DNA of 64,000 nucleotides from Chloroflexi bacterium HGW-Chloroflexi-10 (GTDB lineage Bacteria > Chloroflexota > Anaerolineae > Anaerolineales > Anaerolineaceae): positions 1-64,000 of the forward strand of contig PHBZ01000026.1 of the NCBI GenBank assembly GCA_002840755.1. The letters run 5' to 3'. Under the pieces are notes generated by a model. It made no database searches, was not told the DNA's origin, and was given only the letters and a program-made list of their open reading frames with translations. Positions 12,062 to 18,994 of the stretch are shown here, piece after piece. A program made the translations under genes and the position numbers. Within the stretch, counting starts at the first letter, position 1; the number at the start of each line of letters is the position of its first letter.

Positions 12062-13669
12062 TTAACGGTAGATTATTTCAAATTGGGCTGTTTCTGATAT
12101 CGCTTCTGCGGCTGCACGCATATTCTCGCCTACCTCCACCTGCTGCAAATGGGGTAAAGCCAGGAGCGGTGAAAGATCAAGAAGTTGTGTTTCCGATAGA
12201 TAAATCCGTTCAAGCATTGGAAGGGTTTCTACCTGGTCAAGCGATTGAAGCGGCGCCCTGCGTAATACCAGTTCCCGCAAAGAAGTCAATCCGGATAGGG
12301 CTGCCGGTGATTTGACTTTTGTGTAGCCCGCATCCACTGTTGATAAACGGGAGCAATCACGCAGAGCTGTGAGATCCGAAACATTGGTATCGTAAATAAT
12401 TAATGAGGTCAATGATGCGGCTTGAGATAAGGGGGTTATATCTTCAATTGGGTTATGCCGTAAATCAACATAATCCAAGTAGTTTAGCTCAGATAATGGG
12501 GAAATATCTGTGATGTTTTGATACACCAAAGCTATGGTTTGAAGATTCTGTAATTTTGGCAGGTCGTTGAGTGTGCTGATATTTCCGCGCAGGATTGTGC
12601 CATCATTGTTTACAAAACTTTCTGCATAGGCACTAAAATTTTCCTCATTTGCGGCGGCATTATTTCCGAAGATATATAATTTATTAATTGACAATAGGTC
12701 CTGTTCTGAAAGCGCCTCGCCTTCATTTTTATTAAGAGTGAGGCGTACCGCTTCTTCAATTAATGGTTCTTCGAAAGTTATGCCAACAGGTTGTTGGAAT
12801 TGCATTGCCGTGTAGTGCGTAACCTGAAAAACAACTGCCAAAATAATAAGTGCTGCACATAAAAACGATACTATTCGGCGGCGCAATGCCCGGCCGGTTA
12901 ATTCATGCTTAACCTGAACAACATTTTTATAGCGGTCTTTTGGCGCAAAAGCAGTACATTTTGAAATCGTATTGGAAAGCCAATGATTGGGTATGGCCTT
13001 TTTTGCCTGCTGAACTTCAACATTGCCGGTCAACATCCAGCAAAGCAGTATTCCAAGAGAGAAGATATCCGTACGGCCATCTGTTTGAGAAAAACCATAC
13101 TGTTCCGGAGCGGCATAATGTTTGGTACCCAAACAGATTGTATCTTCCTGCAATTTTTCATCGTATGTGCGGGAAATTCCAAAATCTATCAGTGTGATTT
13201 TGCCCTGTTGATTAACGATGATGTTTTGCGGTTTAATATCTCTATGGATGATAGGTGGTGTCTGACCATGCAGGTATTCCAGGATTTCACAGAGTTGGAT
13301 TGCAATATCAATGGATTGCGACCTGTTGAGTGGGTTTTCCCGGACCAGTTTGTCCAGCGGTTTTCCCTGTGCGAATGAACGTACAACGCAGAGCATTGTT
13401 TCATTCTGATATTCATCGATATAGGTTGGCAATCCCTGATGATCTAATTTTCTAAGCAGACTGCTTTCGGTTGTGTGGGAACGAAATGTCTGATCAAGAT
13501 AACATTTTGTTACATAATAATTGCCTGTCCGCCGATCTTTAATGAGCAGGGTTTCCCCCATTTCGTTATGCGCGAAACATTCCATCAGCTCGTAATTTTC
13601 CAAAAACTTCCTGGGATAGCGGCTGTCATCAAAGCCGGCAAGAAAATCTTCTATGAAAGCATTGGTCAT
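12062..13669 (-). CDS. Membrane Ser/Thr protein kinase with leucine-rich repeats
   Basis: A 535-residue Hanks-type kinase. The N-lobe lysine is K55 (YYVTKCYL), the catalytic loop is HRDIKPQNI (D144), the metal site is IDFGIS (D162) and the APE-like motif is YAAPEQYG. One membrane helix follows at about 265-285 (SFLCAALIILAVVFQ), and the outside part carries internalin-like LRRs (LNYLDYVDLRHNPIEDITPL and similar, about 370-525). The glycine loop is poor (CFAHNEMGE), though K, D and D are all present. It would sense a ligand or wall signal through the LRRs. It starts 6 bp after the HTH-like gene, forming a two-gene operon that ends at the strong terminator. Confidence 0.85.
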   Translation of the reverse strand: MTNAFIEDFLAGFDDSRYPRKFLENYELMECFAHNEMGETLLIKDRRTGNYYVTKCYLDQTFRSHTTESSLLRKLDHQGLPTYIDEYQNETMLCVVRSFAQGKPLDKLVRENPLNRSQSIDIAIQLCEILEYLHGQTPPIIHRDIKPQNIIVNQQGKITLIDFGISRTYDEKLQEDTICLGTKHYAAPEQYGFSQTDGRTDIFSLGILLCWMLTGNVEVQQAKKAIPNHWLSNTISKCTAFAPKDRYKNVVQVKHELTGRALRRRIVSFLCAALIILAVVFQVTHYTAMQFQQPVGITFEEPLIEEAVRLTLNKNEGEALSEQDLLSINKLYIFGNNAAANEENFSAYAESFVNNDGTILRGNISTLNDLPKLQNLQTIALVYQNITDISPLSELNYLDYVDLRHNPIEDITPLSQAASLTSLIIYDTNVSDLTALRDCSRLSTVDAGYTKVKSPAALSGLTSLRELVLRRAPLQSLDQVETLPMLERIYLSETQLLDLSPLLALPHLQQVEVGENMRAAAEAISETAQFEIIYR

Positions 13670-14433: not shown

Positions 14434-15315
14434 TTAAGGGACGTTTCTCTCCAACAGGTTCTTGATTTTTAGCGGGTGTTTCATGATATAGCCGACAATA
14501 GGCGGAGGCGGCACATCGCCGGGGAGATCCCGGGCATCCCTGGGCCACTCGAAGGGAAGATGCACCTGCCCGCCGGGTACCTGAATATCCTGGAGGGCTT
14601 GCAATACGGCACGCAGCACGGCCATTTGTCCCTCAGAATCACCGGGCTGACCGAGGGTGCGCCCGAGCGGGTATTCGATGGCGGCCAGGCGCGGGACACC
14701 AAGCGCAGCGGCTACATCCGGCACGGGGGTGAGGATGATGGTTGTAAAGCCGGCGGCTTCCAGTTCACGTTGTACCAGTCCAACGGACCAGCAGCAAATT
14801 GGTCAGGCAGGGACGAGGACGACGACATCCACATGGTCTGCGCGCAGATCGCGAATGATGGCCGGTACGGTTTTCTGAAGCAGTTCTTCGGGCTGCAGGA
14901 TATAACCCATCATCGAATAATTCCGGGGTGCGGCCTGGCCGATCTCGCCAGCCCGTTCCAGCTGCTGCAATTGTTTTAAAGGAAAGAGGCAGTTGAGATC
15001 CTCGCGAGCATAGCGCGGATCGATGTGGAGATGGTAGAGGGCGACATCCCCGGTCTGCGCGTCCAGGGGAATGACACGGTAGCTGGGGTCACCCCACCAG
15101 GGATTCTGGCGTTCACCTTCCTGGTCAAAGGGGGTGTCGGTTTTGAGGGCAATCCCGGCGGAGCTGAGCAGGGCCACGGTACATTCGGAAAGCGGTTTGG
15201 TCAGCGGAGTCCAGGGGATGGGGCGCGGTGTTTCTTTGTTAATCCAGGTTTTGAGCATGCGTTTGGTGATGCCGCTGATAAAACGGTAGGAATCGACTTG
15301 TTTTTCATTGTTCAT
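14434..15315 (-). CDS. Selenoprotein of the glycine/sarcosine/betaine/proline reductase B family
   Basis: The reading frame runs 293 residues if the in-frame TGA at 14805-14803 is read as selenocysteine. Before it, a 170-residue part ends HVDVVVLVPA. After it the same frame continues PICCWSVGLVQRELEAAGF, then ALGVPRLAAIEYPLGRTLG and QVHLPFEWP, and stops at 14434. Both halves match the GrdB/PrdB-like family, whose active site is normally VPxCPxC or VPxUPxC, so the TGA falls exactly at the redox residue (UPICC). Relatives reduce glycine, betaine or proline derivatives with a thiol cofactor, but this stand-alone form has no known substrate. A hairpin meeting bSECIS rules follows the TGA. It lies 86 bp after the MalT-like regulator gene. 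Confidence 0.85.
14773..14793 (-). promoter_or_regulatory. bSECIS-like hairpin for selenocysteine insertion
   Basis: In the mRNA, UGCUGGUCC pairs with GGACUGGUA (nine pairs, three of them G-U) around the loop GUU. The loop begins 19 nt after the UGA. This fits the published bacterial SECIS criteria: 16-37 nt spacing, a small loop and a G among its first two bases. Confidence 0.65.
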
Positions 15316-15401: not shown

Positions 15402-18131
15402 CTAAATGATAGCGTGTTCTTTGCCAATACGAACAGCTTCGGTACGGTTTTTGGCACCTAATTTACCCATCACGGCCGCGGTATGGCGTTTGACCGTGTT
15501 TAACGAAAGCACCAAGCCGGCGGCAATCTCTTTATTGGATTTCCCGGCTGCCAGCCAGCGCAGCACTTCCATTTCGCGGCGGCTTAGTGGTTCGACCAAC
15601 TGCCGGCTTTGCAGCGGTGTTTCCGGCAGCTGGGTGTTTTGGGTTTGCCAGGCCGCCAGGATTTGCTCAAAGTAGGCGCGCTCCTGCGGTGCCAGCGGCA
15701 TCTTTTGCCAGCCAGACAACACCTCCATCAAAGCTGTTTCCTCATCCAGAAAGACGCGCAGGGGGCGTTCGGACATACCCAGGCGAAGCACGCGAACGAA
15801 TTGGGTTTGGGCAGCCTCTTCCTCGCCCAATAAAACCAGGGACTGCACCAGCAAAACCAGACCTTCCATGACCATACCGAGCAGCCCGGCTTGTTCACTG
15901 AGCGGAAGCACCTCTTCCAGCATCCGGCGCGCTTTACCTATGGCTTCCCGGTTCTGATCACGACGGCCTACGGCCAGGAGGAATCGGGCCGCCACATAGC
16001 GCGAGCCTTCACGGATATAGAGGGGCGCATCCGGCATGATTTCATCCGGACTTTCCACACTATTAGCATCCAGGCCCTCTGCAGCCAACCAGCGGTCGAC
16101 CTCATCCAGGTGACCTTGCTGGATATTGAGACGCAATAAAGCCACTTTGGACCACCAATCATCCAAAATCGGATGGTTGTTCAAATTGGCGATTTCAAAT
16201 ACACGACGCATGGCAGCCTGAGCACCCAAACGGTCGCCGCGTCCCTGTTTTAATTGCGAGAGCCAAATCAACCCATCGACTGCAATTATCGGCATAAAGG
16301 TAAGACATTCACTCACCCCGGCTTCCAAGAGTGCCTGAGCGCGCTCCAGATCGTTGCGTTGGCGGTAAACTTCCCCCAAACCCATCCAGGAAAGCCCCAT
16401 GAGCGGAGAATTTTCCCCGATACACTCATCCACAATTTCCCCGGCACGCAAAAAGGTTTGCTCCGCCTGGGTTAGATGTCCCAACATAATGTAGGCTTCA
16501 CCCAATACGCGCAGCGCCAGCAAAGCCACCAGCGGGGTATTGGATATGAGGGCTGCATGCACAGCCGCTTCCAGTTCCTGCACGGCCTGATCCAATTGGT
16601 TATTGAGGAAGCATGGAAAGCTGAGATTAAAGCGCAGCATGCCATACAGATAATGTGTTTCACCGGGCAAGTAATTCAAAGCTTCAGTACCATAGCGATG
16701 GGCCTGTTCATAATCTCCCATCAAACCGGAGAACAGGGAGCGGGCGGTTAATACCCCACCTTTCAACAGCCGGTCAGTGTGATAGGCGGCCGATGCCTCC
16801 ACCTGAAGCAGGTAACCAGCAGCCTTGTCCAAATCCAGACTGCTAAAAGACACCCAGGCCCGGGCCAGATTAAGATGAGGATACTGTACGATTGTTTCCT
16901 CGGGGAGTTGGCGCAACCAAAAAGCCAGCGTGGACAACTCGCCACGCTTCTCTAAAGTTTCCACACTGGTCTGAAGGTAACCAGCCAGGGCGAGTAAATC
17001 GTTGGCGGCTAACGCGTGTTTGCAAGCCTCATCCCACAACCCCTGGGAAGCGTACCAGGCGGCAGCCTGCCGATTGAGGAAATTCAACCTTTCCGGATCG
17101 TTCTTTTGCAGAACCAACCGTAAATATTCGGCAAACAGGGAATGATAGCGGTACCAGCGGTGCTCATTATCCAACGGCTGGACAAAGAGGTTGGCGTGCT
17201 CAAGGGAATCCAGGCAGGCAACACCATCCTTTCCCGGCAAAAAGGATTCCACGAGGCTATCACACAGGGGACCGCACATACGCTCGACCGTGGCAGTAGC
17301 TAGTAAAAAGCGCTGCACGGCGGGCGGTTGGCGATCCAGCACCTCTTCCGCCAGGTATTCGAAAATATAATGCTGCCCGGCCAGGCGCCCATCCAGGGTC
17401 GCTTCCCTTTCACCACCACGCAAGGACAGGCCGGCCAATTGAATGGCTGCCGCCCAACCTTCGGTATGCTTTTGCAGGTGTTCAACCTGATCCTGGGACA
17501 GTTTCAGGCCCATGACTTCATTTAAAAAGGTTTGAATCTCTTTTGTATTGAAGCTGAGATCCAAAGCGCGAATTTCAAGCAGCGCGCCACGGGCACGACG
17601 GCGGGTAAGATTGATGGGGGGTTCCTCTCGGCTGGCGATCACCAGATGTAAATTAGGCGGGTGATGTTCGAGGAGGTAGGTCAGGATATGGTGGATTTCT
17701 GCATTACGAATAACGTGGTAGTCATCCAATACCAGTACCAGTGCGGTATCCATTTCGGCCAGGTCATTAACCAGCAGGCGCAGGGCGACTTCGAGCATAT
17801 CTTCTGCCAAATAGTTTAACGCGGCAACGGCCGCCTTGCCGGCATGGGGAACAACGACCTGGATGGCCAAGACGAGTGTATGAAAAAAGCGCACGACATC
17901 ATTTTCGCTATCGTCCAGGGTAAGCCAGGCGACCGGGAGGGTTCTGCTGCGCGACCATTCGACCAGAGAGGTGGTTTTGCCGTAACCGGGAGGCGCACAT
18001 ACCAGGGTGAATGGCATACGCGGAATATCTTCCAGCCGGGCATAGAGATCCAGGCGCGGCACCAGGTCACGGCGCACGGGCGGCGGTTGAAGTTTGGTTT
18101 TCAGATAGGGCTGGGTAGGATTAAGGTCCAC
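15402..18131 (-). CDS. MalT-like LuxR-family transcriptional regulator
   Basis: A 909-residue STAND-type activator. Walker A is APPGYGKTTSLVEW (about 45-58) and Walker B is ALVLVLDDYHVI (about 130-141), followed by the typical LHLVIASREEPP sensor and the LQKHTEGWAAAIQLAGLSL winged-helix stretch. A long TPR region (about 430-780) comes before the C-terminal LuxR HTH (LSRREMEVLRWLAAGKSNKE, then IAAGLVLSLNTVKRH). Such proteins bind an inducer on the TPR part and ATP on the STAND part, then activate promoters. The selenoprotein gene 86 bp downstream is a plausible target or operon partner. Confidence 0.92.
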   Translation of the reverse strand: MDLNPTQPYLKTKLQPPPVRRDLVPRLDLYARLEDIPRMPFTLVCAPPGYGKTTSLVEWSRSRTLPVAWLTLDDSENDVVRFFHTLVLAIQVVVPHAGKAAVAALNYLAEDMLEVALRLLVNDLAEMDTALVLVLDDYHVIRNAEIHHILTYLLEHHPPNLHLVIASREEPPINLTRRRARGALLEIRALDLSFNTKEIQTFLNEVMGLKLSQDQVEHLQKHTEGWAAAIQLAGLSLRGGEREATLDGRLAGQHYIFEYLAEEVLDRQPPAVQRFLLATATVERMCGPLCDSLVESFLPGKDGVACLDSLEHANLFVQPLDNEHRWYRYHSLFAEYLRLVLQKNDPERLNFLNRQAAAWYASQGLWDEACKHALAANDLLALAGYLQTSVETLEKRGELSTLAFWLRQLPEETIVQYPHLNLARAWVSFSSLDLDKAAGYLLQVEASAAYHTDRLLKGGVLTARSLFSGLMGDYEQAHRYGTEALNYLPGETHYLYGMLRFNLSFPCFLNNQLDQAVQELEAAVHAALISNTPLVALLALRVLGEAYIMLGHLTQAEQTFLRAGEIVDECIGENSPLMGLSWMGLGEVYRQRNDLERAQALLEAGVSECLTFMPIIAVDGLIWLSQLKQGRGDRLGAQAAMRRVFEIANLNNHPILDDWWSKVALLRLNIQQGHLDEVDRWLAAEGLDANSVESPDEIMPDAPLYIREGSRYVAARFLLAVGRRDQNREAIGKARRMLEEVLPLSEQAGLLGMVMEGLVLLVQSLVLLGEEEAAQTQFVRVLRLGMSERPLRVFLDEETALMEVLSGWQKMPLAPQERAYFEQILAAWQTQNTQLPETPLQSRQLVEPLSRREMEVLRWLAAGKSNKEIAAGLVLSLNTVKRHTAAVMGKLGAKNRTEAVRIGKEHAII

Positions 18132-18433: not shown

Positions 18434-18994
18434 CTAACAAAAGTCCGTCCAGAATTCGATGTATTTGAAATGGCTGAGAGGTAAGCGCAAGTTGGATGTT
18501 TCACGGCCATGGCCGTGACCAAATTCATTTTCAAGGTAATTGGCCAGGTCACGACCATAATAAATAATATCCGTTTGGTAGACCGAAAAAATCGGATTGC
18601 CACTTTCATAGGGAGTTTCCGGCATATAGCGATGCCCGCAAACCGGAATCAATGTGGGTGCGACTTCAACTGCTTTTCTGGCAATTTCAAAGGCCTCTTC
18701 CAATAAATCAGGGTGCGGTCCCCATTCTTCCAGCCAAAAATTGTCGTTTTCAATATCAAAACAAATCCCCTCATACGGCCAAACCAGCAATGCTGCTATC
18801 TGTTCTCGACCCAACTGCCGCCAATCGATGAAACCTTTGGAAACCGGCAGAGCAAACATTAGAAACGCTTTGAGATCAGGCGGAAAGCGAAAGCGCCAGG
18901 TTCGTTGGATTTGCTGAATCTCATCCTGAGATAGACCCGGTGAGAAAATCACACCGGCTCTTTCAAGAAAATCTTTGGTGTATTGGAGGTCCAT
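18434..18994 (-). CDS. SMI1/KNR4 (SUKH) family protein
   Basis: A 186-residue protein with the SUKH pattern: an N-terminal helix, SQDEIQQIQRTWRFRFPPDL (residues about 22-41), KAFLMFALPVSKGFIDWRQL, then WPYEGICFDIENDNFW and VEVAPTLIPVCGHRYMPETP. SUKH proteins are frequent immunity or regulatory proteins. The family match is clearer here than for the gene at 3861. It stands alone, with no toxin beside it. A TACACT-type -10 lies upstream on the minus strand. Confidence 0.8.
   Translation of the reverse strand: MDLQYTKDFLERAGVIFSPGLSQDEIQQIQRTWRFRFPPDLKAFLMFALPVSKGFIDWRQLGREQIAALLVWPYEGICFDIENDNFWLEEWGPHPDLLEEAFEIARKAVEVAPTLIPVCGHRYMPETPYESGNPIFSVYQTDIIYYGRDLANYLENEFGHGHGRETSNLRLPLSHFKYIEFWTDFC

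Follow-up and report, generated by a model that had tools for sequence, protein, structure and literature searches.

A selenoprotein family of the kind described here has been on record since 2005, from marine metagenomes. As described in parts of the respective reports, PrdB with selenocysteine (Sec) in a UxxC motif is represented by 42 Sec genes in the Sargasso Sea data (PMC1088965), and the PrdB family (pfam07355), also UxxC, by 235 Sec and 110 Cys genes in the GOS data (PMC2398784). Excerpts of reviews from 2022 and 2026 likewise list D-proline reductase (TIGR04483) as a UxxC selenoprotein (PMC9312934, PMC13188914). We noticed nothing on the function of stand-alone PrdB-like members in the titles and abstract openings of the literature searched. 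The gene analyzed here comes from the genome of a bacterium, Chloroflexi bacterium HGW-Chloroflexi-10, where it lies in a 64,000-nucleotide stretch of contig PHBZ01000026.1 (the window). It resembles the marine set in its PrdB family membership and in its Sec within UxxC, a likeness drawn from the partial published descriptions rather than from the marine sequences themselves (PMC1088965, PMC2398784). We are highly confident that it is a genuine selenoprotein gene, belonging to a stand-alone UPxC branch of the PrdB/GrdB family. The features of the locus are:

14434..15315, minus strand: predicted stand-alone PrdB/GrdB-like selenoprotein gene, Sec171-Pro-Ile-Cys174 (UxxC), 293 residues
14803..14805, minus strand: in-frame UGA codon, predicted to be read as selenocysteine; TGA in the window and in 80/80 homologs read
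14773..14793, minus strand: bSECIS-type hairpin of nine pairs with loop GUU; inner eight pairs (14774-14792) kept in the family
15402..18131, minus strand: MalT-like regulator of LuxR type, codirectional and 86 nt upstream; its connection with the selenoprotein gene is uncertain

The reading frame opens with an ATG at 15315, 6 nt downstream of a Shine-Dalgarno-like AAGGA. It runs for 170 codons to a TGA (15315-14803, with the UGA at 14805-14803) and continues in the same frame for another 122 codons to a stop at 14436-14434. With the UGA read as U, the frame encodes one protein of 293 residues in which Sec171 lies in the motif VLVPAUPICCWSVGL. A first-pass annotation had placed the gene at 14434-15315 with correct codon counts, leaving the strand unnamed, and had described the TGA-ended frame and its continuation as we find them. 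It had also expected automatic gene callers to split the gene, and a standard ORF listing does return two pieces, a 170-aa ORF and a GTG-started ORF of 96 aa.

The protein matches the NCBIfam PrdB profile (TIGR04483) over residues 29-258, across the UGA, with 160.4 bits, short of the equivalog cut-off of 300. The Pfam GRDB profile (PF07355) passes its gathering cut-off (38.1 bits against 22) in a match that stops at residue 168, and the GrdB/various_sel_PB profiles remain below theirs (TIGR01917, 37.4 against 602.2; TIGR01918, 49.6 against 65.45). Identity to the PrdB proteins of Enterococcus raffinosus and Ligilactobacillus salivarius (L208 and L209) is about 35% over residues 29-257, with Sec at the same position. 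Operonic PrdB carries UGTC and is encoded near prdA and prdD, whereas the window gene encodes UPIC and has no prdA neighbor. With a score of 160 against the cut-off of 300 and a motif of UPIC rather than UGTC, assignment as a D-proline reductase subunit is unsupported. In comparison with GrdB of glycine, sarcosine, or betaine reductase, the window protein matches the later part of PF07355, has 293 residues compared to 431 in the profiles, and falls far below the GrdB equivalog cut-off; Sec occupies the equivalent position (UGTGTRC) in a GrdB-type protein of one related genome (L027). The pyruvoyl subunit (PF09338) had no matches in the window's genome, as in 14 equally silent control genomes; in L027, the same profile recognizes the subunit next to GrdB. 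Neither prdA nor another pyruvoyl partner gene adjoins the window gene. A role in Stickland-type D-proline or glycine reduction is unlikely because no pyruvoyl partner subunit was found, a search in which the PF09338 controls were silent as well.

Homologs were searched for with patterns that omitted the Sec residue itself. Out of 376 relatives returned by the scan of genome contigs, we retained and read the best 80, to which the UGA count applies, and set aside the 296 weaker ones. The first-pass annotation had envisaged either Cys or Sec at this position; among the best 80 of 376, the codon is TGA in all 80, always before P-x-C, and Cys occurs in none. In 61 genomes, the window's own and 60 relatives, seven places in six genomes (own included) have exactly one TGA each, one of them being the GrdB-type protein in L027. 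The window protein and 17 homologs with UP[IV]CCWSVGL (L029-L045; 50-69% identity to the window protein) form a clade of 18 with support of 0.972, and 13 of these 17 nearest homologs are in Chloroflexota-type records. Just outside lies L046 (CCQ, 45% identity), whose joining is unsupported (0.014), and the remaining homologs mostly carry UP[LVI]CHQSVGL at 34-41% identity. Four PrdB proteins from plasmid records, with the UGTC motif, form a separate clade (support 0.887). Two of them, L208 and L209, are in annotated prd operons; prdA is absent within 3 kb of the Peptoclostridium plasmid gene (L207), and one further plasmid record carries no annotation there. The long branch of L047 in this tree is false, as its sequence was badly cut. 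Viral contigs yielded no confirmed relatives in a search with two patterns, one of which had Cys at the Sec position and was blind to UGA forms, and PHROGs contained no relatives of the selenoprotein.

The nine-pair hairpin with loop GUU that the first-pass annotation had reported ten bases past the UGA is present at 14793-14773 on the minus strand. Its loop starts 18 nt past the UGA, a spacing that we take to be inside the bSECISearch range. Taken alone, the window hairpin is unexceptional: its z-score is -1.74 against dinucleotide shuffles, 15 of 200 of which fold at least equally well, and -0.43 against synonymous recodings, so that its stability is ordinary for the protein encoded. Across 86 sequences (the window, the 80 homologs, and five from related genomes), the 42 nt past the UGA have a mean z of -1.62 against synonymous recodings, compared to -0.25 for control stretches of the same genes, and the UGA-side fold is lower than its own control in 80 of the 86. 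The signal is weaker in the nearest group of 19 (window and L029-L046), with a mean z of -0.89 and a control of -0.20. An ungapped alignment of 84 sequences, made without L050 (whose UGA region is that of L048) and L051 (aberrant UPECC, poor pairing), has 97.8% of cells paired in an eight-pair core (columns 11-18 with 22-29); over all 86 rows, 667 of 688 cells (96.9%) are paired. Slid controls pair at only 7.9-48.5%, and the outermost, ninth pair is kept in only 17 of 86 sequences. Five core pairs have changes on both sides, in 43 cells, a five-pair count equaled by 1 of 500 shuffles, and the covariation score is reached by none of the 500; these shuffles ignore the relatedness of the sequences, whereas the slid controls keep it. 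For example, column pair 15/25 is G-C in 74 sequences and A-U in 10, a switch that is synonymous on both sides where CAG...CTG alternates with CAA...TTG. The invariance of GT in the loop is no evidence for the element, because it belongs to a conserved Val codon. On the basis of these sequence comparisons, the hairpin past the UGA is a real bSECIS-type element, held by base-pair covariation.

An ordinary pseudogene, with the UGA as a nonsense mutation, would also give the two pieces seen in the standard ORF listing. This explanation is contradicted by the UGA at the same codon before P-x-C in every homolog read and by the covariation of the hairpin; in addition, coding signal flanks the UGA on both sides (0.30 and 0.43 in a coding-signal scan). 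We therefore reject it as highly improbable. The first-pass annotation had named a genome devoid of Sec machinery, together with varied nonsense or frameshift changes in homologs, as marks of a pseudogene, and neither was found. Its proposal of a selenoprotein with a bSECIS-like hairpin is upheld, since the UGA is conserved in the homologs read, the hairpin covaries, and selA, selB, and selD are present in the genome.

The same annotation had read the MalT-like neighbor as a hint of regulated use, for which we find little support: a MalT-like gene is upstream in only 4 of 19 nearest-group loci (window, L036, L040, and L044), some with short flanks. No conserved operon partner was apparent among ORFs of at least 90 aa in these 19 loci (window and L029-L046; some flanks short). 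In 67 further loci, where ORFs of at least 90 aa were compared, the commonest neighbor family occurs in 13 and is apparently SDR-like. The second gene downstream in the window (12062-13669, minus strand) encodes a protein that resembles Ser/Thr kinases and, in its C-terminal part, leucine-rich repeats; its matches to PknB and internalin-type models are below cut-off. A minus-strand gene at 18434-18994 has a weak match, below the Pfam cut-off, to SUKH-1 (SMI1/KNR4), which is often an immunity-type fold.

The window's genome comprises 6.57 Mb in 101 contigs and is 99.6% complete, with 6.67% contamination. The first-pass annotation had stated that Sec insertion would require selA, selB, selC, and selD. 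Three of these are present in the genome: selA (538 bits), selB (344 bits, both pieces), and selD (349 bits), itself a gene with an in-frame UGA (SCAGUASK) that is followed by a hairpin. The fourth, selC, encoding tRNA-Sec, is truncated in the assembly. SelA, whose gene is on a high-GC contig, shares 57-63% identity with six homologs in the genus, and SelB shares 53-57% with seven. The selA contig also carries a SAM riboswitch (L149 14552-14663, plus strand). A blind coding-signal scan of 814 kb of the genome revealed two frames with an internal UGA beside Cys, the window gene and a gene on contig C71; its sensitivity is limited, as it missed selD despite covering the stretch in which selD lies. 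Profile matches of the C71 gene are to DUF1573, over the cut-off, and to the NCBIfam OS_HP2 (seleno)protein model, below it (35.8 against 100). Its hairpin has the loop GUU 19 nt past the UGA, compared to 18 in the window gene, with an unremarkable folding energy (z -1.02). GC content in 20 stretches of the genome, three of them from the window's contig, ranges from 0.396 to 0.525 with no clean two-group split visible, and the window-contig stretches correlate at 0.37-0.74 with the others. The bin may still be mixed. The two additional features are:

contig C24, 100265-100351 (L004 1501-1587): selC, syntenic, with the 3' T-arm and acceptor strand lost or replaced; 38.8 bits against a cut-off of 47
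contig C71, ~74460-74951 (L151 6461-6952), minus strand: OS_HP2-like gene with in-frame UGA (EGCUPPTP), from the coding-signal scan and profiles

The C24 locus is the only selC candidate in the window's genome and receives no ARAGORN call; the other seven matches of the Rfam search are Ser, Leu, Arg, and Trp tRNAs. An intact tRNA-Sec gene is present in all seven other genomes of the genus, at 67-73 bits. The truncated gene shares both of its flanks with some relatives and a single flank with the others. Its sequence agrees with that of the relatives up to the T-loop, beyond which the 3' strands of the T-arm and of the acceptor stem are missing or substituted by other sequence, and its -10 box deviates from the form common to all seven. 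Compared to the relatives, the variable arm shows a paired double change, suggesting that selC probably diverged under structural constraint before truncation. When folded, what is left of the transcript forms a strong new hairpin. An alternative reading from the Rfam alignment, in which the T-loop is shortened and the acceptor stem mispaired, is still without a proper acceptor stem. No second selC or separate 3' half was found by the Rfam search (150 of 537 first-look candidates scored), no second selC by pattern or by blastn with an intact relative's gene at E <= 10, and no separate 3' end by a local pattern in the 12 kb around selC. The best 3'-end-like match, on contig C71 (E 0.19), lies apparently inside a response-regulator gene, judging from the sequence, and ARAGORN finds no tRNA there. 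Scans for promoters and terminators near selC and near the selenoprotein gene gave nothing of use.

The truncation of the assembled selC calls into question whether this organism decodes UGA as Sec at present. The explanations weighed below concern decoding today, and both are compatible with a genuine selenoprotein gene. We compared SelA and SelB, both full length, with those of the other genomes by counting departures from columns that are invariant elsewhere; these counts and the identity comparison leave out the SelA of G006, whose gene is divided between two contigs. SelA of the window's genome departs at 12 of 195 columns (0-9 of 183-192 in the other genomes) and SelB at 15 of 229 (0-23 of 214-237), the highest of seven by a small margin and the third of eight, respectively. 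Counts are low for genomes that are closely related to others in the compared set. The comparably distant G002-G004, with similar branch lengths, have 8-9 departures of 191-192 in SelA and 11-23 of 225-237 in SelB. These counts speak against a long-standing loss of decoding and are neutral toward a recent one. With no clear relaxation of SelA and SelB, the truncation would be very recent, an assembly error, or accompanied by an intact copy missing from the assembly.

We rank a problem of assembly or coverage first: the better-supported reading, held with some confidence, is that the truncated selC reflects an assembly or consensus error, or that the assembly has a gap where a second, intact copy lies, and that decoding is normal. 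Every other Sec gene found is intact, the assembly consists of 101 contigs (6.67% contamination), and there is a precedent, described in part of one report, in which the tRNA-Sec gene of a selenoprotein-bearing genome was absent from the assembly but present in its reads (PMC5330540). Nevertheless, about 6.5 kb of sequence separates the selC locus from the end of its 107 kb contig, completeness is 99.6%, and the -10 box is altered as well. The altered -10 box also fits the second-ranked explanation, a real loss: the lineage would have lost Sec decoding very recently through the truncation of its only selC, and the former selenoprotein gene would now yield a 170-residue fragment. That selC is syntenic with the relatives' intact gene yet lacks its 3' T-arm and acceptor strand, and that no other copy was detected by Rfam model, blastn, or pattern, are consistent with such a loss. 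We consider it possible but doubtful, as SelA and SelB are full length with departures near those of G002-G004 (SelA nonetheless being highest of seven), the frames around the UGA remain open in selD, the OS_HP2-like gene, and the window gene, and the variable arm of the truncated selC retains its paired double change. More speculatively, the organism may be just past the loss of Sec decoding, or the altered selC transcript may even serve as an unorthodox tRNA-Sec. Beside the truncated selC, the genome has intact selA, selB, and selD and three UGA genes found so far (the window gene, selD, and the OS_HP2-like gene), and SelD would itself need Sec. A later stage has been described, according to part of the report, in Helicobacter pylori, which kept an altered SelA after losing Sec decoding (PMC4607533). 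In the titles and abstract openings surveyed, we noticed nothing on bacteria in which a truncated selC accompanies intact selA and selB.

An AlphaFold2 model of the window protein (pLDDT 91.9, pTM 0.92) places Sec171 between a strand (164-168) and a helix (172-187), directly before the helix. Among solved structures, a single-protein sequence search found no relatives at E <= 1, a profile search gave only four weak, chance-level matches (best E 0.065), and Foldseek gave no match at E <= 0.001. In the mechanism that we propose, SelB carrying Sec-tRNA would bind the hairpin and insert Sec at the UGA. Sec171 and Cys174 of the UPIC motif may then form a selenol/thiol pair for the reduction of a small substrate or disulfide, a pair that could be recycled by a thioredoxin-like protein. 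The protein would thus be a stand-alone selenol/thiol reductase. In three genomes of the same genus (L024, L025, and L026), a PrdB-like selenoprotein gene with UP[VI]CHVSVG adjoins a deiodinase-like gene with its own UGA (GSFTUPYCG), an arrangement that suggests thioredoxin-fold partners. The deiodinase-like gene has no close homolog in the window's genome, where a search returned one 33-residue match (E 9e-4, no stop).

The gene described here is a well-supported addition to a selenoprotein family that is abundant and for whose stand-alone members no substrate is known from the literature searched. Standard ORF listing cuts such genes in two. Should selC indeed be truncated, this would represent an early step in the loss of the Sec trait, in which the tRNA goes before the enzymes and the selenoprotein genes.
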